64,000 nucleotides of DNA from Rossellomorea marisflavi (lineage in GTDB: Bacteria > Bacillota > Bacilli > Bacillales > Bacillaceae_B): the NCBI RefSeq assembly GCF_022170785.1, contig NZ_CP081870.1:3336001-3400000 (forward strand), in the 5' to 3' direction. The notes beneath the pieces are model-generated. The model had not been told where the DNA came from. It did no database searches and saw nothing but the letters and a program-made list of their open reading frames with translations. The translations under genes were made by a program, and so were the position numbers. Below are positions 25,256 to 44,706 of the stretch, piece by piece. Position 1 is the stretch's first letter. The number at the start of each line of letters is the position of its first letter.

Positions 25256-26449
25256 TCACCTCACGACCCTTTTGGCCCCGGAAGCATCGAGACCGGCAAA
25301 CGTGTGGAGCACGTCAGCAGCTCTGTAAATATCCTCCGACCCGATAAGGGCCGTTACCTTTTCCGGATCTTCATGGATGGAAGATACATCGATTCCGGAA
25401 TCACCAAGAGTGGACCTCACCCCGAACCTCAGAATGTCTGAACCCGGTGATTTCACGATGGTCACTTTTGCCTGCTCCACCTTCTTCGAGTATTCCTGGC
25501 CAAGATCGCGCAACAGATGCTCGACGTCGCTGCGGTCAGATGCATCCACCGTCAGGGTCAGATCCTGCCCCTTCCAGTGCAAATCGGGTTTCACGTGGAT
25601 GACTTCGAGGGATTCCTTGAGAAGGGATTCCAACCCGTAAGCGGAATCCTTCATACTGATGGAGGTGACCTCATCTTTGAACGCAACACCGACAGGGCCC
25701 CGATCAGTGGTATGAATGTGGTCATCCACGAGTGTTCCCTCGCCTTTGATCAAGCCTGGAAGGATACGGAACGGAATCCTGCTCTTTTTTGAATGAAAGA
25801 CGGCCCTGGGATGGATGACAGCTGCCCCGGAATCAGCGAGACAGAGAACCTCACGGTAGGTAAGATGTGGGATTCTCGTCGCAGCAGGCACAACCCGGGG
25901 ATCTGTCGTATAGATCCCATCTACGTCCGTATAGATATCACAGCGCTCCGCACCAAGGGCTGCAGCAAGGGCCGTCGCCGTCGTATCGGAACCTCCCCTT
26001 CCAAGGGTCGTGATTTCACCGGCGTCTGTGATTCCCTGGAATCCCGCCACCACAGGGATGATTCCTTTACGGAGCTCATCCTGCACTCGGGATGGGTCGA
26101 TCTCTTTTATCCTGGCCTTCCCATGGACGCCATCTGTTCTGATGCCCGCTTGTCGCCCAGTAAGAGAAACGGCTTTGAATCCCGCCTCTTGAATCGACAG
26201 GGTCAACAGGGCAATGGTGATTTGTTCACCAGTGGATAACAGGAGGTCCATCTCCCGTTTCGGTGGATGGGCCGTGATTTCCCCAGCGAGCTTCGTCAAA
26301 TGGTCAGTCGTGTCACCCATGGCGGACACGACGACGGCCACTTCTTTCCCCTTTTGCTTCTCACGGATGACATGCTGGGCCATCCGTTTGATTCTTTCCA
26401 CCGATCCCACTGAAGTGCCTCCGAATTTCTGTACGATGATCTCCACCAT
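25256..26449 (-). CDS. Aspartate kinase
   Basis: A 397-aa aspartokinase that phosphorylates aspartate, the first step to lysine, threonine and methionine. VQKFGGTSVGS is the kinase signature, LLSTGEQITIALL, TLGRGGSDTTA and DVDGIYTTDPR complete the catalytic domain (to about residue 245); two ACT domains follow. Its stop is adjacent to the convergent transpeptidase stop with no space for a terminator. It starts 21 bp after hom and is therefore under the same SAM riboswitch, suggesting a methionine-dedicated isozyme. Confidence 0.92.
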   Translation of the reverse strand: MVEIIVQKFGGTSVGSVERIKRMAQHVIREKQKGKEVAVVVSAMGDTTDHLTKLAGEITAHPPKREMDLLLSTGEQITIALLTLSIQEAGFKAVSLTGRQAGIRTDGVHGKARIKEIDPSRVQDELRKGIIPVVAGFQGITDAGEITTLGRGGSDTTATALAAALGAERCDIYTDVDGIYTTDPRVVPAATRIPHLTYREVLCLADSGAAVIHPRAVFHSKKSRIPFRILPGLIKGEGTLVDDHIHTTDRGPVGVAFKDEVTSISMKDSAYGLESLLKESLEVIHVKPDLHWKGQDLTLTVDASDRSDVEHLLRDLGQEYSKKVEQAKVTIVKSPGSDILRFGVRSTLGDSGIDVSSIHEDPEKVTALIGSEDIYRAADVLHTFAGLDASGAKRVVR

Positions 26450-26470: not shown

Positions 26471-27712
26471 TTAACGTACCGATGCTTCCCTTTTCAATCT
26501 GGACTCAAGGGGAAGTTCCTTCAAGATGGGATAGGGCTGCAGCTTCTCATCCGCTTGCTTTACTGCATTCCATTCTTCTTCACTTCCTCTGATGAAGAGA
26601 TACAGGTGGCCGCTCAGTGTGATGCGGTCCAACAGATCAAAGCGGTCGACCCATTCAGGCAATGCCTCACCAGAAGTCCTCACCACCCATTCACCATCAC
26701 GGCCGGAAAGGGATTCGACTCCTATTCTGGCACGCGTCTCGGAAGATGCGTATCTTCCTTCGATCAGAGATAGAAAATCCTCCACCATCGCACTTCCTGT
26801 AGGTAATTTACCCGCTCCCGGTCCTGACAGGGTGACCCTTCCCACCAGGCTTCCTTTTACAGACACAACGTTTTCAACATTCTCCACTCCGTAAAAAGGA
26901 TGAGACTCCTTCACCAGTACCGGCTCCACTACTCCGCTTATGCTTTCTCCGTCCCTTTGAATCGACCCGACATGCTTGAACCGGAGGGAGAAGGATTCAG
27001 CGGCCTGCAGCCAATCACTGGTTAGATCTGTGATCCCTTTTTTCGGGACCGCTCCCCAGTCGGGCTGACCATGGAAGGCGGCTCGACTGAGGATCATGAG
27101 CTTATAGAAGGCATCCTGTCCTCCTACATCACTGGTGGGATCTGCTTCTGCGTACCCTTTTTCCTGAGCAATAGAAAGGGCCCGCTCGAAGGACAAGCCT
27201 TCTTTCCTCATCTGGGAAAGGATGAAATTGGAGGTCCCATTCAATATACCTTGAATATGTGTGATTTCATTCACATTCAGTAGTTGCCTGATGGCCCCGA
27301 TAATGGGAAGTCCTCCTGCCGTAGTCGCTTCAAATCCGACTGCGACTCCCCGTTCACGTGCCCGTGTCAAAAGGTCCTCACCCTTCGAAGCAAACATCGC
27401 CTTATTGGCCGTTACAACATGGATCCCCCGTTCGATGGCCTTGGTGAGATAGGTGTATCCAGGTTCTTCCCCGACAATCGCTTCAAACAAGACATCGATG
27501 CCCTCTTCTTCCAGGATTTCGTCAAAGTCCGTCGTGACCTTGATGCTTGGATCAATCTCTCTTTCCTTTGATGGGTCTTTGATCAAGATGGCACGGATCC
27601 GCACCTCTTTTCCCGTGATATCCTTGATCCTTTCGCGATGTGTTTCCAGGGCTTCGTATACCCCCTGACCGACGGTTCCGAATCCGAGTAGTGCTACGTG
27701 CAATTCTGACAT
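26471..27712 (-). CDS. hom: Homoserine dehydrogenase
   Basis: A 413-aa NAD(P)-dependent enzyme reducing aspartate semialdehyde to homoserine. LLGFGTVGQGVYE is the Rossmann motif; VTANKAMFA, GFEATTAGGLPIIGAIR and ILNGTSNFILSQM, with GYAEADPTSDVGGQDAFYK, form the catalytic signature. The C-terminal part, from about residue 340, is ACT-like but shows limited similarity. Ribosome binding site TAGGAGG. It heads an operon with aspartokinase behind a SAM-I riboswitch, so homoserine supply is tied to methionine status. Confidence 0.93.
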   Translation of the reverse strand: MSELHVALLGFGTVGQGVYEALETHRERIKDITGKEVRIRAILIKDPSKEREIDPSIKVTTDFDEILEEEGIDVLFEAIVGEEPGYTYLTKAIERGIHVVTANKAMFASKGEDLLTRARERGVAVGFEATTAGGLPIIGAIRQLLNVNEITHIQGILNGTSNFILSQMRKEGLSFERALSIAQEKGYAEADPTSDVGGQDAFYKLMILSRAAFHGQPDWGAVPKKGITDLTSDWLQAAESFSLRFKHVGSIQRDGESISGVVEPVLVKESHPFYGVENVENVVSVKGSLVGRVTLSGPGAGKLPTGSAMVEDFLSLIEGRYASSETRARIGVESLSGRDGEWVVRTSGEALPEWVDRFDLLDRITLSGHLYLFIRGSEEEWNAVKQADEKLQPYPILKELPLESRLKREASVR

Positions 27713-27764: not shown

Positions 27765-27925
27765 CAAAAAAGCCCCCTTCTTATGGTTAAGAAGAGGGCT
27801 TATGAGGCAGGCTCCTCCCCTTATCTTCCAGATCACCATCGATCTGTAGGAATTGGCACCTTTCATGATTGCAGGTTGCCGGGCTTCATCGGGCCTATTC
27901 CCTCCGCCGCTCTAGATAAGAGTGT
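27765..27925 (-). promoter_or_regulatory. SAM-I (S-box) riboswitch of hom-aspartokinase
   Basis: Read on the minus strand: CTCTTATC (P1), GGCGGAGGGA, GGCCCGATGAAGCCCGGCAACC split over P2 and its loop, AGGTGCCAATTCC, and GATAAGGGG closing P1 (27817-27826). These are the conserved S-box elements. A terminator follows: AGCCCTCTTCTTA/TAAGAAGGGGGCT with T run at 27767-27800. SAM binding is expected to promote termination before hom. Confidence 0.93.
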
Positions 27926-35208: not shown

Positions 35209-36006
35209 TTATAGCCCATTGGCATGATCATAGCCGGTGGATTGAACCTGTAAAAGCCACCCTCGAGTGAAATCAAGGAGTTGTCGAAAGGCCCCTGAAG
35301 TTGAGTAAGTATGGGACCCTTTCGGAATGATTGCCTTTTCTACCTCTCCCGAACGCCGATTGGAGAAGTTTGAGTGATAGAGGGAGCAGTAATCGACGGA
35401 GATTTCTTCATCCTGGTCACCGTGGGCAAGCAAGACATTCCCCATATACTCATTTGCCCGCCGTATCGGGTCCCACCCTTGAAGGGTCGTGAGAAACTCT
35501 CGCTTCAGCTCATAGCCCAAATAATCTGCCTTCCCGTCCCGCAAGATGGCTTCTTCCACATCATCTCCGATAATGCGTCCAAGATCATGCCGGGGAGAGC
35601 CGACCGCCGACCAGAGGGCAAGGTGGCGAACTTCTTCTTCGATGGCTGCTTCAAGGGCCACTGCCCCCCCAAGGCTGTGGCCGATCAAGGCAATGCTCTC
35701 CGGGTCCACCCCTTTCATCTGCTTCACAAACCCGATGACCGCCTTCGTCTGTGCAATGAAGCGATCTTTTGTATTCAAGCCGTACTCCCCCAGACTTTCT
35801 CCGCAACCGTCGTAATCGAAACGTACGACGATGTGTGAGCTGAGTTCATGTGCAGCCTTCACGAATAATCGGTCCACGCCTTCTTTTGAACCGACGAAAC
35901 CATGACAGATGATGACGGCCGGATGGACGCCGAGACGTGTAGCAGGATACTGTATGGCTGCAGGAAGGTGGGTACCCTCCCATGGAATGGATGTATACCA
36001 GCTCAT
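35209..36006 (-). CDS. Alpha/beta hydrolase downstream of a SAM riboswitch
   Basis: A 265-aa alpha/beta hydrolase. ICHGFVGSKEGVDRLF is the oxyanion loop, RFDYDGCGES and IGHSLGGAVAL carry the nucleophile elbow (Ser), VLLAHGDQDEEIS the acid and GSHTYS the His. No signal peptide, so cytosolic. Related proteins are annotated as esterases or acyl-peptide hydrolase-like. Ribosome binding site AAAGGAGAGG. The only transcript start visible upstream on this strand leads through an S-box about 170 bp away, which suggests a link to sulfur metabolism; the substrate is unknown. Confidence 0.85.
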   Translation of the reverse strand: MSWYTSIPWEGTHLPAAIQYPATRLGVHPAVIICHGFVGSKEGVDRLFVKAAHELSSHIVVRFDYDGCGESLGEYGLNTKDRFIAQTKAVIGFVKQMKGVDPESIALIGHSLGGAVALEAAIEEEVRHLALWSAVGSPRHDLGRIIGDDVEEAILRDGKADYLGYELKREFLTTLQGWDPIRRANEYMGNVLLAHGDQDEEISVDYCSLYHSNFSNRRSGEVEKAIIPKGSHTYSTSGAFRQLLDFTRGWLLQVQSTGYDHANGL

Positions 36007-36173: not shown

Positions 36174-36316
36174 AAAAAAAATCTCCCATAAGGAGATGTA
36201 CATTACTCTCTCCCCTTATCTGCCAGGCTGAAGTTGCCTACTGGAATGAGCACCTTCCATTTGGAGGTTGCTGCGGGATCGTTGGACCAGATTCCTTCCC
36301 CGACTCTTTATAAGGT
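36174..36316 (-). promoter_or_regulatory. Divergent SAM-I (S-box) riboswitch
   Basis: Read on the minus strand: CCTTAT-AAAGAG, GGGGAAGGA, CTGGTCC, GCAGCAACC, AAGGTGCTCATTCC and GATAAGGGGAGAG, in S-box order with P1 CCTTAT/ATAAGG. The P2 loop reads AACGAT instead of the usual GATGAA, so the pseudoknot partner is altered. A terminator CATCTCC-TTAT-GGGAGAT plus eight T follows at 36174-36197. The family call is good; the ability to bind SAM is uncertain. Confidence 0.8.
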
Positions 36317-38058: not shown

Positions 38059-39792
38059 TTATGCGCCTGCTTCCACCGGTACTGCCACCCAGTGGCCACT
38101 CGACACTTCGACAAGCTCCGATGATTGCAACCCGTAGCGATCTGCATCCGTTTGTTCCTCCAGAAGGACGCGCTCCTTCTTCTTCTCGATCGTTGGATCA
38201 GGAATCGGGATGGCAGATAGCAGGGACTTAGTATATGGATGTTGAGGGTTGGTATAGAGTTCCTCGCTTTCGGCAAGCTCGACGATCTTCCCGGCATACA
38301 TCACGGCCACCCGGTCACTGATATGCTTCACCATGGATAAATCATGAGCTATGAAGAGGTATGTGAGCCCCAGTCGCTTCTGAAGATCCTGAAGAAGCTC
38401 CACGATCTGTGCCTGAATCGATACATCAAGGGCCGACAAAGGCTCATCGCACACGATGAACTTCGGTTCCACCGCCAGGGCACGCGCGATTCCGATCCGC
38501 TGTCGCTGTCCACCGGAGAACTCATGGGGATAGCGCTTCGCATGGGAAGCCTGAAGCCCCACCATTTCAAGCAGTTCCTCCACACGCCGCTTCCGGTCCT
38601 GCTTCGTTTTGCACAGCCCGTGGATATCAAGGGCCTGACCGATGATATCCATTACTTTGAAACGGGGATTGAGTGACGCATAGGGGTCCTGGAAGATCAT
38701 CTGCATATGGCGCCTCATCGCTTTCATTTCACGCTTCGTCATGCCGTTGACCGACATTCCTTCATAGGTGACGATGCCTCCTGTCGGTTCATTCAACCGC
38801 AAGATCGCCCGACCCGTCGTCGACTTACCTGAACCAGATTCTCCCACAAGCCCCAATGTTTCGCCTTCACGGATAAAGAAGGAGATATCATCCACCGCCT
38901 TCAAGGTATGGCCTTTTCCAAGGTCGAAATGCTGACGCAGGGACGATACATCAAGGAGTGGCGGCTTGTCTGGTGAACAATCCTTTTTAGATTTTTTCGG
39001 TTCATCGAGACGCGGGAGGGCGTTCAGGAGCTTCTTTGTATACGGATGCCTTGGTGAGGCGAAGATTTCTTCTGTTGTCCCCCGTTCCACGATTTCTCCT
39101 TCTTTCATGACCACGACCGCGTCACACATACCGGCCACCACCCCAAGGTCATGGGTGATGAGGATGATAGACGTTCCGAACCTCTCCTGCATATGTTTCA
39201 TGACATTCAGGATCTGCTTCTGGATGGTGACATCGAGGGCCGTCGTCGGCTCGTCGGCAATCAGGAGGGTCGGTCTGCAGGCAAGGGCGATGGCGATCAT
39301 CACGCGCTGGCGCATCCCCCCGGAGAACTCATGGGGATATTGACTATACCGCTCCTCGCTGTTGCGGATACCCACTTGTTTCAGGATATCGATGGCTTCC
39401 TTCTTCGCCTGTTCCCGTGTCAGGTCCTGATGTTTCACGAGGCTCTCGGCAATCTGGTTCCCGATCCGGATCGTCGGATTGAGGGATGTCATAGGGTCCT
39501 GAAAGATCATGCCGATGTCACAACCGCGTATGGACTCCATCTCCTTCTCGGTCTTCTCCGCGAGATTCTCGCCGAGGAACGTGATCTCCCCTTCCTTCAT
39601 ATACGAGGGTGGCGATGGTAGCAGCCTCATGATCGATCGTGCCGTCACGCTTTTCCCGCTACCCGATTCCCCTACGATGCCCAGGGTCTCGCCTTTTTTC
39701 ACTTCAAAACTTACACCGCGCACTGCATCGAATTCCTCTTCCTTTGATTGGAATGAGATATGCAAATTGTCTACTTTAAGAATTGATTCCAC
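38059..39792 (-). CDS. Peptide/nickel-type ABC transporter ATPase, two fused nucleotide-binding domains
   Basis: A 577-aa protein that joins two DppD/DppF-like ATPases in one chain. Domain 1: Walker [11 protein letters not shown]-loop [10 protein letters not shown], signature FSGGMRQRV, Walker [13 protein letters not shown]. Domain 2: [50 protein letters not shown]. Each domain carries the HPYTK oligopeptide-transporter tail. Start: a GTG 5 bases after AGGTGG was preferred to a GTG 9 bases upstream. Divergent from the permease and binding-protein genes with which it presumably forms one transporter. Confidence 0.9.
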
Positions 39793-39820
39793 TTTTTCCA
39801 CCTGCCAGGACGATTTGTTA

Positions 39821-39835: not shown

Positions 39836-39926
39836 ACATTGATTTTTCAAGAATGTGTATTTAAAATATACTAAACAGATCGGAATTATGCAATTTGTAT
39901 TTTAGCAAAGGAGGGCAACGCTTCAC

Positions 39927-41369
39927 ATGGAAACGGCGAAAGCTACTGGCACCTATGCACAAACCCCGATGTTCCAAGATACCTATCAAAAGATGCAGCG
40001 ACGGAATCTTTATCACATCTTCATTCTGATTCTCGGATTACCGGTCCATCTCGCCGTCTTTTTCATCTATCTTCACAGGAAGAGGAACGACCCTTATCAG
40101 AAACTCCTTCACGAAATGAAACAGGGACTGATCGAAGAAGGAGTGAAAGCCACTTACGTAACACGCGCCGAAGAAGAACTTCAAAAAAAGAACATCTTCT
40201 TCAATCAACAGGCATCATCCTCAGCCATCAAGGCAAAAGCCGAACGACTCGCTCAGGAAAGATTGGATGAAACGGCTGAAGAGAGGACGGTCAAACAGCT
40301 CACCCTGCAGGACGAACGGAAGATCACGTATAAAGAAACCTTCGGGTCCCTACTCCTGAACCCGACGTTCCTGATTCTATCTGCTCTACCCGGTCTCCCT
40401 ATGTATCTACTACTGCTCTTATACAGCAATCATTTTGTAAAATACATATTCGAACGCCTCGTCATGAGCTTATTCGTCATCATAGGAGTCGCATTCCTTG
40501 TCTTCACCATCCTGTACCTATCCCCGTTCAATCCGGCAGCGAACATACTCGGGGAGACAGCGACAAAGGATCAGATCGCTGCATTCAATGTCATTCACGG
40601 TTTGGATCAGCCTTATCTTGTGCAGCTGTGGAACACGATCAAAGGAATTGCCACCTTTGACCTCGGCTCTTCCTTTACAGGAAATGAAGAAGTCGCATCG
40701 AGCATCGGAAGGAAGTTTCCCATCACCCTGACACTGGCCATCATTTCACTGGTCATGGCAATTGTGATCGCCATTCCGATCGGCATCGTTTCTGCAACGA
40801 AGCCAAGGTCATTCTTTGACTATACGTTTATGTTCGTGGCGTTGATCGGTCTGTCCATCCCGAACTTCTGGCAGGGGCTGATCTTCATCCTGAACTTCTC
40901 AATCAAATGGAAGTGGTTCCCGGCAACCTACACCCCGGGCAACTGGCTGTCGATCGTGATGCCGGCCGTCGTCCTCGGGACCGCTTTGACTGCATCGATT
41001 GCCCGAATGATGAGGTCATCCACCCTGGAAGTGATCAATGAGGACTATATCCTGACGGCCAAGGCCAAAGGATTGAACAAGCGGCAGGTGCTCTGGAAGC
41101 ACGCAGTGAGTAACGCCATGATCCCCGTCATCACGGTCATCGGTCTCCTTTTCGGCGGAATGCTCGGAGGTGCCGCCGTGACGGAGAAAGTATTCAACAT
41201 CAGCGGGATCGGAAGCTACATCGTCGATAAGCAGTTCATCCCCGATATTCCCGCCATCATGGGAGGGGTCGTCTACATTGCCATCACGATCTCCCTCGTC
41301 AATCTATTGATCGATATCCTGTATGCGTTCTTCGATCCGAGGATCCGCTCCAAGATGAAACAATATTAA
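39927..41369 (+). CDS. ABC transporter permease (DppB-like) with extra N-terminal region
   Basis: A 480-aa permease; usual DppB/OppB proteins have about 310-340. The canonical part starts near residue 172 ([32 protein letters not shown]) and ends with the EAA-type loop ([38 protein letters not shown]). Before it lie about 170 extra residues: a hydrophobic helix ([18 protein letters not shown]), a charged, Glu/Lys-rich soluble segment of about 95 residues and a second helix ([18 protein letters not shown]). The extension topology suggests a cytosolic domain between two additional helices. First of three co-directional genes; ribosome binding site AAAGGAGGG. Confidence 0.88.
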
Positions 41370-41382
41370 AGCAGGTGCATGT

Positions 41383-42888
41383 ATGACAACCAACGTGGAA
41401 GTACCGCATTACAAAAAGAAATTCGCACTGAAAATATCATCTGAATATACACAGTCCACCTTCACATGGGTGCTGTCCCTGGCCATCACGCTCATCTTCC
41501 TATTCAACAGTTTCGACCTGTCGGAAGGGTCCATGAAGCCGGTTGCATTTACGTTCTTCGCGGCCTATGCATTCTTCACCATCGTACAGCTGGTGATCAC
41601 GCGGCTGATCAAACGGGACCTGAACAGGGACGGGGTCATCCGGAAAAGCACGAGGCGCCTTGGCTATCTCCAGCTTCTCAGCCTGTTGACGGCCAATGTC
41701 TTCACCGTCAGTGCCGCCTTCCTACTGATCAAAGAAAAGAAATCGCCCGAATACACATTCTCGGTTTATATGATTCTGACGCAGATCTTCGTCATTGCCG
41801 TATCCGCTCTTAATCTATTCAAGCCGTACGTATCGGATACGTTCCTACTGGGGATGTTCCTGCTCCTCGCCATCACGATGTTCCACCTCGCCGTCCTATG
41901 GATGGTGATCACGTTCGGTGAACGCCTGCCGAAATGGACCGGCATTGTGGCGGTTCTATTGATGCTCACGGGATTGACGGGCAATCTTTTCGCCATCTTC
42001 CTCGGGTGGAACCTCCTCATGAAGTCACGGGGAGAACATCATCCCGTCACCGGCACATGGTACCGGGTGTGGGATAAGGTGACCGGCAATATGACATCCA
42101 TGCTCGGATTGTTCTTCATTGTCTTCCTGTTCTCGATTTCCGTTTGCAGCTACCTGACGTTCGATTATGCCCTCGCCGTAGAGAATAATTACTCGGCGAT
42201 CCTGCAGACGCCGAACCTTGCCTACCCCCTCGGGACCGATGATTATGGGCGAGACCTATTCTCCCGGATCATCTTCGGGGCACGGATCTCCCTCATCGTC
42301 GGGTTCCTCTCAACGTTGATCCCGTTCATCATCGGCGGCATCCTCGGGGCGATTTCGGGCTATTACGGTCAGCGGACCGACAATATCATCATGAGGCTAC
42401 TGGATGTGCTATACGCAATTCCGGGAATCCTCCTCGCCATCGTCATCATCGCAGCATTCGGGTCCAACACGACGACCCTTGTCCTCGCACTGAGTGTCGG
42501 GTCGATCCCGACCTATGCCAGGACAATGAGAGCCAATGTGCTCATGGTATCAAACTATGAATATGTCGATTCCGCCCGCGCACTGGGCACAGGGAATTTC
42601 GAAATCATCTTCCGGCATGTGGTGCCGAACTCAATGGCACCGATGATCGTCAAATCGACCCTCACCATCGGGGGGGCAGTGATCGCCACCAGCAGTCTGA
42701 GCTATCTCGGACTCGGTATCGAGCCTCATATACCCGAGTGGGGAAACATCCTGAAAATCGGCAGCACGTATCTTGAAACACATTCCTATCTCGCCATCTA
42801 CCCGGGTCTTGCCATCATCCTCCTAGTCCTCTCCTTCAATTTCCTTGGAGACGGCCTGCGGGATGCCCTTGATCCGAAGTTAGACTAA
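41383..42888 (+). CDS. ABC transporter permease (DppC-like) with extra N-terminal membrane domain
   Basis: A 501-aa permease, about 200 residues longer than usual DppC/OppC. The canonical part begins near residue 240 ([21 protein letters not shown]) and contains [22 protein letters not shown] and the EAA loop [24 protein letters not shown]. The first 220 residues form roughly six additional hydrophobic segments with short charged loops, without similarity that I recognise. It starts 13 bp after the first permease. Both permeases being extended points to a distinct transporter subtype. Confidence 0.88.
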
Positions 42889-42915
42889 AACCAACACCTT
42901 AGGAGGTCATTCATT

Positions 42916-44706
42916 TTGAAAAAATCCATTTTCGCCGTGTTCCTTGCGCTTGTCCTGTTTGCAGCAGGCTGCGTGAACACAAAATCAGATGTAGCTGAAG
43001 ACAGCAAGAACGATGGGAAGAAGCCGACCATTGAAATCCTCGGCATGAGTTCAAGCGAGTCCGATATCAATATCCTTCGCGACCAGCTTGTGAAAAACGG
43101 CTTCGATGTGAAGCTGAATGTTCAACCGGACTACGGAAGCTTCAAATCACAGCAGGATGCAGGAAACTATGACGTCGCCCTCTCCAGCTGGACGACGGTG
43201 ACAGGTAACCCTGACTATGCCGTACGCTCCGTCTTCAAATCCGGTGGAGATTACAGCACAATCGCCGATGAGAAGGTCGACAAGCTGATTGATGAAGCAA
43301 GTATGCAAACGCCTGAAGAATTCACCAAAACGTACAAGGCACTGGAAGACCGCCTTGTATTCGAAAAAGCGTATATCGCACCGCTCTATATCTCATACAA
43401 AGCACAGGGAATCAACAAGGACGTGCTGAACACCGATACCGTCCGCCTCTCCAAATCCCGTGCCCTAGCGTGGGAAACGATCGACTTCAATGACGAAGCG
43501 AAACGTGCTAACGATCCACTGATCATGCAGCAAAGCATCCCGACCCTGACGTCCCTTGACCCGATCAAAGGGAATGACGGATCCATCAATACAATCAACA
43601 CGAATATGTATGTAAGGCTTGTGAACCTGACCGATGATGACAACATCACGGCTGATGGTTCCCTCTCCCGCAACTACACGATCGGCGAAGGAAATTCAGA
43701 GTACTACTTCCTGCTACGCGATGATATCAATTTTGCCAAAGTAACAGACAAAAAAGCCGTCGATTCCGGTGAGCGCGTCGGCGCCGACGATGTCATCTTC
43801 TCTCTGGACCGTGCAAAGGATAAGGATTCCGTTCCTGATCACCGTACGTACACCCTCCATGAGCATATCAAGGATGCAGAAGTCGTGACCGACCTGAAGG
43901 AACTTGACGGAAAGACCAATGACGGAAAAACGATCCGTGAAAGCCTCGAGAATGGCCTTGATCAAAAAATCTCAAGTCTTGTAGATGATAAAAACGACGC
44001 CGATAACGGAAGCGGAAAATACCAAGTCGTGAAAATGACGACGACCGAACCATTCCCACAAGTATTGAACTACCTTGCCCACCAATCGGCCGGGATCGTA
44101 TCGAAGAAACAAGTGGAAAGCATCAACACGTATGATGTCGCATCCTTCGATGTGAAGAAAGACATCCCGTACGGTGACCAAAACACCGTCACGGAAGGCG
44201 ACAAATACGATAACAGCCTTTACGCAAGCGGACCATACATCATGACGTACAAAAACGATTATGAAGCCGTCTTCCAGAAGAACCCTGCCTACATGAAAGG
44301 CACTGAAAACGAAGCGAAGATCAGCAACATCAATGTCCGCTTCATTGCAGAAGCCGACAGCGCCCTGTCCGCCCTGCGTAACGGGGAAATCCATTTCTAC
44401 TACGGAGTCCCTGAAACGAAATACGAAACCGTAGAAAAAGACGACAAGCTGAAGCTGCAGCGCATCGAAAGCAACGGCGTATCGTACCTGCTCTTCAATT
44501 CCAAAGGCCGTGACGTTTCCAAAAGTGACGACCTAAGAAAAGCCGTCCTGTACTCCATAAACCAAGATGAGTTCATCGACTACTACCAAGGCAACAAAAT
44601 CAAAGCCGTCTCCACCGTCAGCCCCCTTGTCGACACAGGCAACGAGCTGAAGGCCGACAGTGATAAAGTGAAGGAATTCCTGAAGAAATATCAAGAGAAT
44701 AAGTAA
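42916..44706 (+). CDS. Peptide-type ABC substrate-binding lipoprotein, apparently circularly permuted
   Basis: A 596-aa lipoprotein (lipobox FAAGC, Cys19; TTG start after AGGAGGTCAT). The order of segments is unusual for family 5 binding proteins. Residues about 37-170 look like the normal C-terminal lobe (ILRDQLVKNGFDVKL, YDVALSSWT, VDKLIDEA, YIAPLYIS). Residues about 200-596 then run from the normal N-terminus (SIPTLTSLDPIKG, YFLLRDDINFAK, ADDVIFSLDRAKD) to the region that usually precedes that lobe (LRKAVLYSINQDEFIDYYQG, DSDKVKEFLKKY), where the protein stops. It is the last gene of the operon. Substrate probably peptides, but unknown. Confidence 0.88.
   Translation: MKKSIFAVFLALVLFAAGCVNTKSDVAEDSKNDGKKPTIEILGMSSSESDINILRDQLVKNGFDVKLNVQPDYGSFKSQQDAGNYDVALSSWTTVTGNPDYAVRSVFKSGGDYSTIADEKVDKLIDEASMQTPEEFTKTYKALEDRLVFEKAYIAPLYISYKAQGINKDVLNTDTVRLSKSRALAWETIDFNDEAKRANDPLIMQQSIPTLTSLDPIKGNDGSINTINTNMYVRLVNLTDDDNITADGSLSRNYTIGEGNSEYYFLLRDDINFAKVTDKKAVDSGERVGADDVIFSLDRAKDKDSVPDHRTYTLHEHIKDAEVVTDLKELDGKTNDGKTIRESLENGLDQKISSLVDDKNDADNGSGKYQVVKMTTTEPFPQVLNYLAHQSAGIVSKKQVESINTYDVASFDVKKDIPYGDQNTVTEGDKYDNSLYASGPYIMTYKNDYEAVFQKNPAYMKGTENEAKISNINVRFIAEADSALSALRNGEIHFYYGVPETKYETVEKDDKLKLQRIESNGVSYLLFNSKGRDVSKSDDLRKAVLYSINQDEFIDYYQGNKIKAVSTVSPLVDTGNELKADSDKVKEFLKKYQENK

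Follow-up and report, generated by a model that had tools for sequence, protein, structure and literature searches.

The gene at positions 42916–44706 (+) of the window, by which we mean the whole 64,000-nucleotide stretch of Rossellomorea marisflavi DNA analyzed here, almost certainly encodes a circularly permuted family 5 (OppA/DppA-like) substrate-binding protein. Our full explanation, to which we give a probability of about 0.85, is that its product is the surface-anchored GisD lipoprotein of a GisABCD-type importer, a natural permutation of the family 5 fold that would capture glutathione (GSH) or GSSG.

Gene and Residue Map of the Window Protein

The gisD-like gene, identified as a circularly permuted family 5 substrate-binding lipoprotein from its open reading frame, its Pfam order and a rotation scan, starts with a TTG codon preceded by a ribosome-binding site, aggaggt, at 42901–42907 (+). 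The product of 596 residues opens with a lipoprotein signal peptide (42916–42972, +) predicted from the sequence and a 47-row alignment to end at the lipobox cysteine, Cys-19, which is nearly invariant (90% or more) in that alignment. Residues 37–190 (43024–43485, +) correspond to the C-terminal segment of standard SBP family 5 proteins (profile positions 292–366 and beyond), as assigned by Pfam, a PDB sequence search, the rotation scan and half-profiles. A short linker from the old C-terminus to the old N-terminus, residues 191–198 (43486–43509, +), is placed by the best rotation point of 189, and residues 199–596 (43510–44703, +) carry the standard N-terminal region through to the middle of the second lobe (Pfam, rotation scan and half-profiles). 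The new C-terminus lies in the loop after an AKELL-type helix. The short segments from which the preliminary description had read this order were all located in the protein: LRDQLVKNGFDVKL from residue 54, YDVALSSWT from 85, VDKLIDEA from 121 and IAPLYIS from 154 in the front part, and TLTSLDP from 210, KAVLYSINQDEFID from 542 and DSDKVKEFLKKY from 581 in the later part.

The Family 5 Profile Is Matched in Swapped Order

The whole window protein matches the Pfam family SBP_bac_5 with 129.8 bits, above the curated cut-off of 32.4, and this is the sole Pfam family that it matches at E values up to 1. The match runs against the standard N-to-C order of the profile. Residues 254–591 align to profile positions 10–275, and the N-terminal piece scanned alone aligns over residues 38–112 to positions 292–366 of 368 (E = 2.4e-7), with a score of 30.7 bits that is slightly below the gathering cut-off of the family; when the protein is scanned alone from residue 196 onward, the match ends at profile position 275. 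A PDB sequence search gives the same swapped order against chain 5u4o, where window residues 437–554 align to 200–314 and residues 32–157 to 360–489. Six other SBP_bac_5 proteins of the R. marisflavi genome cover nearly the entire profile in one piece (starts 1–7, ends 364–367) and one more gives a 55.3-bit match to positions 4–158 only; the window protein alone is split in reverse order, into profile positions 10–278 and 292–366. By its profile order, the protein is a permuted variant of SBP family 5 rather than a standard member.

When the window protein was rotated in silico (residues 199–596 followed by 37–198), a single continuous Pfam match to positions 10–366 of 368 was obtained with 135.8 bits, and matches in the PDB became longer and unbroken, e.g. 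5u4o residues 200–489 in one piece. For the rotation scan, a profile was built from 20 standard family 5 proteins, five from Escherichia coli, six from the R. marisflavi genome and nine from other genomes, the last having been picked as “clo” controls among standard-order matches to the rotated window protein. The mature window protein was rotated in steps of 6 and the controls in steps of 12, each control against a profile built without it. The window protein gave its best single match, 181.4 bits, when cut at 189 (model positions 36–496 of 514), compared with 122.3 bits unrotated; all cuts from 171 to 207 lie within 3.0 bits of the best score, and the whole-sequence scores, which sum both pieces, differ less (185.0 rotated versus 177.2 unrotated). 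A staphylococcus-like GisD has its maximum at this cut as well (153.1 versus 95.5 bits). Among the controls, 17 of 20 score best unrotated, and the other three (NikA, SapA and own_L197) gain 0.1–0.6 bits when rotated.

When the profile is divided into half-profiles at the loop that follows the AKELL helix, the C-half matches ahead of the N-half in 109/109 full-length relatives, the window protein included, a count in which some records appear twice under two locus identifiers (e.g. L031/L146 and L062/L205); the N-half comes first in all 20 standard proteins. The C-half model scores 49.7–73.4 bits in all 110 rows. Row 110 is a 257-residue Staphylococcus aureus fragment (L160), whose opposite order rests on a 1.5-bit match and is uninformative. 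Chance is excluded because of the rotation scan with its 20 controls and because the permuted order is seen in 109/109 relatives against 0/20 standard proteins. The preliminary description had proposed a circular permutation of a family 5 binding protein with the old termini meeting near residues 170–200, and had pointed to N- and C-half scans and to homologues of the same order as ways to check it. The swapped profile order, the rotation and the half-profile test bear out the permutation, the junction falls at about 189–198, and homologues with the C-half first were indeed found.

Predicted Structure

An AlphaFold2 model of the window protein, computed with 47 orthologues, has a pLDDT of 82.0 and a pTM of 0.81, with ten-residue block means of 75–98 over residues 41–190; values under 50 are found mainly in the signal peptide and linker (residues 1–33) and at 412–433. 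In a Foldseek search of the PDB the best 50 of 1271 matches are OppA/DppA-like binding proteins by title (1dpe, 6ofq, 1uqw, 3m8u and others), and among the matches listed the glutathione-binding GbpA (3m8u) has the best target score (TMt 0.53), with YliB/GsiB (1uqw) at 0.50. Foldseek aligns in sequence order and the moved segment lies outside the superposition; a target score near 0.5 is possible for a permuted protein. Folded alone, the moved segment (residues 37–198) gives a poor model (pLDDT 64.9, pTM 0.41), which is expected of half a lobe but lends the permutation no support.

Two readings that do without a permutation can be set against these results. Residues 37–190 might belong to an additional domain, unrelated or a second one, that was fused ahead of a truncated family 5 protein, and the moved segment by itself does score slightly under the Pfam gathering cut-off (30.7 against 32.4 bits). 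We regard this as very improbable, as the segment is the part of the profile that is absent from the remainder of the protein, is recognized by the C-half model at 49.7 bits or more in every row, joins the rest in one alignment upon rotation (model positions 36–496 of 514) and folds poorly alone. The particular combination of an unrelated domain at 37–190 with a complete standard order in 200–596 fails against the profile: residues 38–112 supply its missing end, and the match of the part from residue 196 onward ends at position 275. An assembly error, a frameshift or a chimaeric gene in one genome is already refuted and keeps a negligible probability: we found no support for any of these, the same order recurs in 109/109 full-length proteins from many genera (a few records counted twice), and there are no in-frame stops in the R. 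marisflavi genome or in three relatives within the genus.

The Four-gene Transport Unit

The binding protein gene stands in a unit with two permease genes and a divergent ATPase gene. The gisA-like gene (38059–39801, −), assigned by profile matches and identity, encodes a fused double ATPase of 580 residues and is divergent from gisB, gisC and gisD; its top NCBIfam model is GsiA, at 660.9 bits, below the cut-off of 1077 for that model. Profile matches, identity and hydrophobic segments identify the two permeases, both of which are extended at their N-termini. The gisB-like permease (39927–41369, +; 480 residues) has an OppB/DppB-type core from about residue 171, preceded by about 165 extra residues, and 8 hydrophobic segments in all; the gisC-like permease (41383–42888, +; 501 residues) has an OppC/DppC-type core from about residue 226, about 220 extra N-terminal residues and 10 hydrophobic segments in all.

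This layout of a divergent fused ATPase, two N-terminally extended permeases and GisD is found at 107 of 110 binding-protein loci, a count that takes in a few loci whose permease frame is split or shortened or whose ATPase runs off the end of a contig. Three loci deviate. L073 has no more than the start of an open reading frame, the S. aureus record L160 contains an inverted duplication, and L206 (3893–10793) has, in place of the divergent fused ATPase, two separate ones located between permease and binding protein, with all genes on a single strand; the binding protein of L206 is permuted all the same. The GisB N-terminal addition occurs in 25 genomes, and all 12 of the regions fetched contain the full unit. 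Beyond the four genes no cluster of neighbors is present in more than 18 of 109 loci. In the staphylococcus-like locus L201 both permeases likewise have N-terminal additions with extra hydrophobic segments. The N-terminal part of the window GisC (permease pair 39927–42888) is longer by about 110 residues than that of the staphylococcus-like GisC (L201, 5201–7716).

A Conserved Element in the Divergent Promoter Region

The region between gisA and gisB contains a conserved element, TAAAATATACTAAACAGATCGGAATTATGCAATTT, at 39862–39896 (+), identified by a pattern match across loci; the window site fits the pattern with 0 mismatches. Sites resembling TATATCAATCGGAATAATGCAATT occur in this region at 81 of 108 loci, compared with 2.54 expected from mononucleotide shuffles, the pattern having been drawn up after the sequences had been seen; the element is lacking from 27 of the 108, three staphylococcus-like loci among them. 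By eye, its core resembles the site of CymR, the cysteine repressor, at Bacillus subtilis cysK as printed in PMC11487621. Inspection of the R. marisflavi genome, also by eye, revealed a CymR-like Rrf2 protein adjoining a cysteine-desulfurase-like gene and a TGGAATTA-type site upstream of the main cysK gene; of three other cysK-family genes, one has only AGGAAT, inside the preceding gene, and two have no site. Searched genome-wide, the element gave the gis site with 0 mismatches and two further matches with 3 mismatches, one within secY and the other beside genes unlike sulfur genes, and a reversed control pattern gave one match. We infer that the element is a candidate CymR site, and keep the reading at this strength because there are few further matches in the genome, the cysK sites are mixed, and the S. 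aureus CymR paper (PMC2869319) contains 0 occurrences of the strings “oligopeptide” and “SA0203.”

Elsewhere in the window, a SAM riboswitch at 27818–27922 (−, 90.4 bits) precedes open reading frames 26471–27712 and 25256–26449, and a second one at 36213–36316 (−, 70.2 bits) precedes open reading frame 35209–36006. We take the three products to be homoserine dehydrogenase-like, aspartokinase-like and alpha/beta-hydrolase-like, respectively.

Relation to Staphylococcal GisABCD

In S. aureus, gisA and gisBCD-ggt correspond to SAUSA300_0200–0204, with the ATPase gene divergent; the system imports GSH and GSSG, and the cells need it to grow when low GSH or GSSG is the sulfur source (PMC10355420); work with gisD mutants indicates that growth on GSH at or below 250 μM depends on Gis (PMC12510641). 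The window unit shares with this system, as it is described in PMC10355420, a fused ATPase encoded divergently, two permeases that have additional membrane segments, and the lipoprotein GisD. Identity between the window and the staphylococcus-like L201 is 49% for GisA, 44% for GisB, 46% for GisC and 42% for GisD (over 1–589). In the S. aureus record L160 the ATPase and the permeases recur, together with the beginning of the binding protein (44% identity). Three staphylococcus-like genomes, which we infer to be staphylococcal, are 72–81% identical to L160 over that part and have genes for two permeases, the binding protein and ggt in a row, with the ATPase gene divergent from them. The S. aureus GisD fragment opens with the same moved segment and continues into the TLDP region, and a full-length staphylococcus-like GisD is permuted as the window protein is. 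The comparison makes it very probable that the window unit is orthologous to staphylococcal GisABCD, and the protein is named GisD because of this orthology of the four-gene importer.

The window locus and its non-staphylococcal relatives differ from GisABCD-Ggt in that ggt is absent beside them, being adjacent in 3 of 110 loci, all staphylococcus-like (fetched flanks). Because of this absence, membership is limited to the GisABCD type, without Ggt. The R. marisflavi genome has one ggt match (Pfam), away from the window locus; this gamma-glutamyltranspeptidase gene runs in the same direction as the genes of a family 5 importer of standard order (L204, 5538–12529), and the genome may thus hold two glutathione-related importers, one permuted and one standard. 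The L160 record (NZ_CP077929.1) is a 30.5-kb S. aureus “plasmid” with an inverted duplication centered near gisD and a type I restriction subunit R gene, and could represent chromosomal sequence that was misassembled.

Substrate of the Window Importer

In DppA and GbpA an aspartate (Asp-408 and Asp-432, respectively) holds the amino group of the ligand (PMC3295651). In the register of the 3tpa/HbpA2 alignment this position is taken in GisD by Val-95, invariant in 47 of 47 sequences, and in an alignment GsiB likewise lacks the aspartate of the Asp-408 type. Because the ligand-holding aspartate is replaced by Val-95, the GisD pocket, as read from the aligned sequences, is not of the DppA/GbpA type, and the assignment of glutathione binding rests on orthology, with the function carried over at 42% identity. 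We consider GSH/GSSG the probable substrate of the window importer. GisD would then close its lobes on glutathione and/or GSSG and pass the ligand to GisB and GisC, and the fused GisA ATPase would power import as a sulfur source.

The permutation could be real and the Bacillaceae and Paenibacillaceae transporter nonetheless carry another small peptide or a gamma-glutamyl or sulfur compound, glutathione being confined to the ggt-bearing staphylococcal branch. The fetched flanks, with ggt adjoining only 3 of 110 loci, speak for such a division, as do the GisD identity of 37–43% between the two branches (106 loci), the branch of 0.91 that leads to the staphylococcus-like pair in the tree, the position of the R. 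marisflavi ggt beside a separate standard-order importer, and the lack of the CymR-site-like element in the three staphylococcus-like loci. Yet the two branches share the complete set of four parts as well as the divergent arrangement, and the pocket-loop residues Trp-92, Thr-94, Val-95, Gly-97, Pro-99, Tyr-101 and Ala-102 are common to the window GisD and the S. aureus fragment. In addition, the presence of the CymR-site-like element in most of the remaining loci points to sulfur supply. A different substrate is a real possibility on this balance, though clearly the weaker one, and we retain glutathione or GSSG as the preferred ligand.

Comparison with Known Binding Proteins

The preliminary description knew of no binding protein of this class with such an order. 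This stands insofar as we found no described permuted family 5 protein and no remark on the order of GisD in the open-licence literature, and the string “permut” has 0 occurrences in the main text of the GisABCD paper (PMC10355420). The order is, however, no peculiarity of a single gene: it marks a conserved clade that has a named and functionally studied member, staphylococcal GisD. Nor is it without precedent among ABC binding proteins at large, a naturally permuted binding lipoprotein of an ABC importer, TpMglB-2 (Tp0684) of Treponema pallidum, having been described in another family (PMC4990184). TpMglB-2, a “Type Ic/Cluster Bc” ligand-binding protein, retains ligand binding in its permuted form, and its authors suggest that tethering may matter; unlike GisD, it has a sugar-binding Type I fold, another break point and a fourth hinge crossing (PMC4990184). 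GisD gives no sign of the Type I sugar-binding fold, as it matches Pfam SBP_bac_5 only and the Foldseek matches listed are OppA/DppA-like. With the precedent of TpMglB-2 as given in PMC4990184, the permutation is a structural variant within a known importer class.

E. coli GsiABCD, which imports GSSG (PMC11719327), resembles the window system in having a family 5 binding protein, GsiB, without an aspartate of the DppA Asp-408 type, and a fused double ATPase. It differs in the standard order of GsiB, which is 22% identical to the window GisD after rotation, and in the arrangement of the gsi genes as one co-directional operon. DppA, OppA and GbpA share the fold family and profile match with GisD; E. 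coli DppA and OppA are in standard order, and where the aspartate of DppA and GbpA holds the ligand amino group (PMC3295651) GisD has Val-95.

Probable Origin of the Permutation and Its Consequences

In a tree computed on rotated sequences, 20 GisD proteins form one side of a branch with a support of 100/100 and a stem length of 2.73; the bootstrap is not fully settled, several long branches are flagged, and we claim no nearest standard relative. Because these 20 form one clade, a single origin of the permutation is the simplest reading of the sequence data. The best standard-order matches to the rotated window protein have 23–30% identity over part of the length, the best long one 24% over 498 columns, and a search for an intermediate, either a standard-order sister or a tandem duplicate of gisD, found none. 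The permuted gene probably arose once, by in-frame tandem duplication of a standard gene and trimming at both ends; the old N- and C-termini would have been joined by about 8–10 residues and the new ends opened in the second-lobe loop after the AKELL helix, with the two-lobed fold probably retained.

Standard family 5 members have their N- and C-termini side by side on the first lobe. As a consequence of the permutation, the lipid anchor of GisD would hang on the second lobe rather than the first. If true, nature has circularly permuted the OppA/DppA fold in a transporter type known to supply S. aureus with glutathione sulfur, and a binding protein can switch its tethered lobe yet stay under selection, which bears on binding-protein docking and on the design of permuted biosensors. 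Ordinary alignments of GisD to GsiB or DppA would be out of register. More tentatively, GisD might found a permuted class of family 5 binding proteins with the lipid anchor on the opposite lobe, the membrane additions of GisB and GisC having co-evolved toward a docking geometry unlike that of Opp/Dpp, and the published view of glutathione recognition by GisD versus GsiB might partly reflect an out-of-register comparison; we think this wider proposal rather doubtful.

Distribution of GisD

The survey in PMC10355420, which was confined to genomes with Ggt, reports GisABCD-Ggt as complete in a few staphylococci, relatives of S. aureus, and as nearly complete in a few bacilli. In our scan of species genomes there were 117 pattern matches, of which 97 were relatives (80 kept, 66–99% identity), from Rossellomorea, Cytobacillus, Niallia, Neobacillus, Lederbergia, Sporosarcina, Paenibacillus, Saccharibacillus and others. 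By sampled genomes, the R. marisflavi genome included each time, GisD relatives occur in 4 of 36 within the genus, in 23 of 397 within the order and in 4 of 398 within the phylum, the last four all inside the class; with the S. aureus fragment as query, 34 of 398 genomes in the class sample were positive. Among viral contigs, 80 pattern matches yielded 0 relatives. Soil bacteria are numerous among the carriers of the permuted order, and Staphylococcus shares it. The GisABCD-type importers without a linked ggt would thereby be extended to many Bacillaceae, Planococcaceae and Paenibacillaceae.

The GisD copy of another genome of the genus (L209, 68% identity) groups with L217, from a different family, and apart from the window copy, which suggests gene transfer. 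A contig titled Arthrobacter (L025, 5682–7493) holds a Bacillales-type Gis locus at 73% identity, reflecting either contamination or recent transfer.
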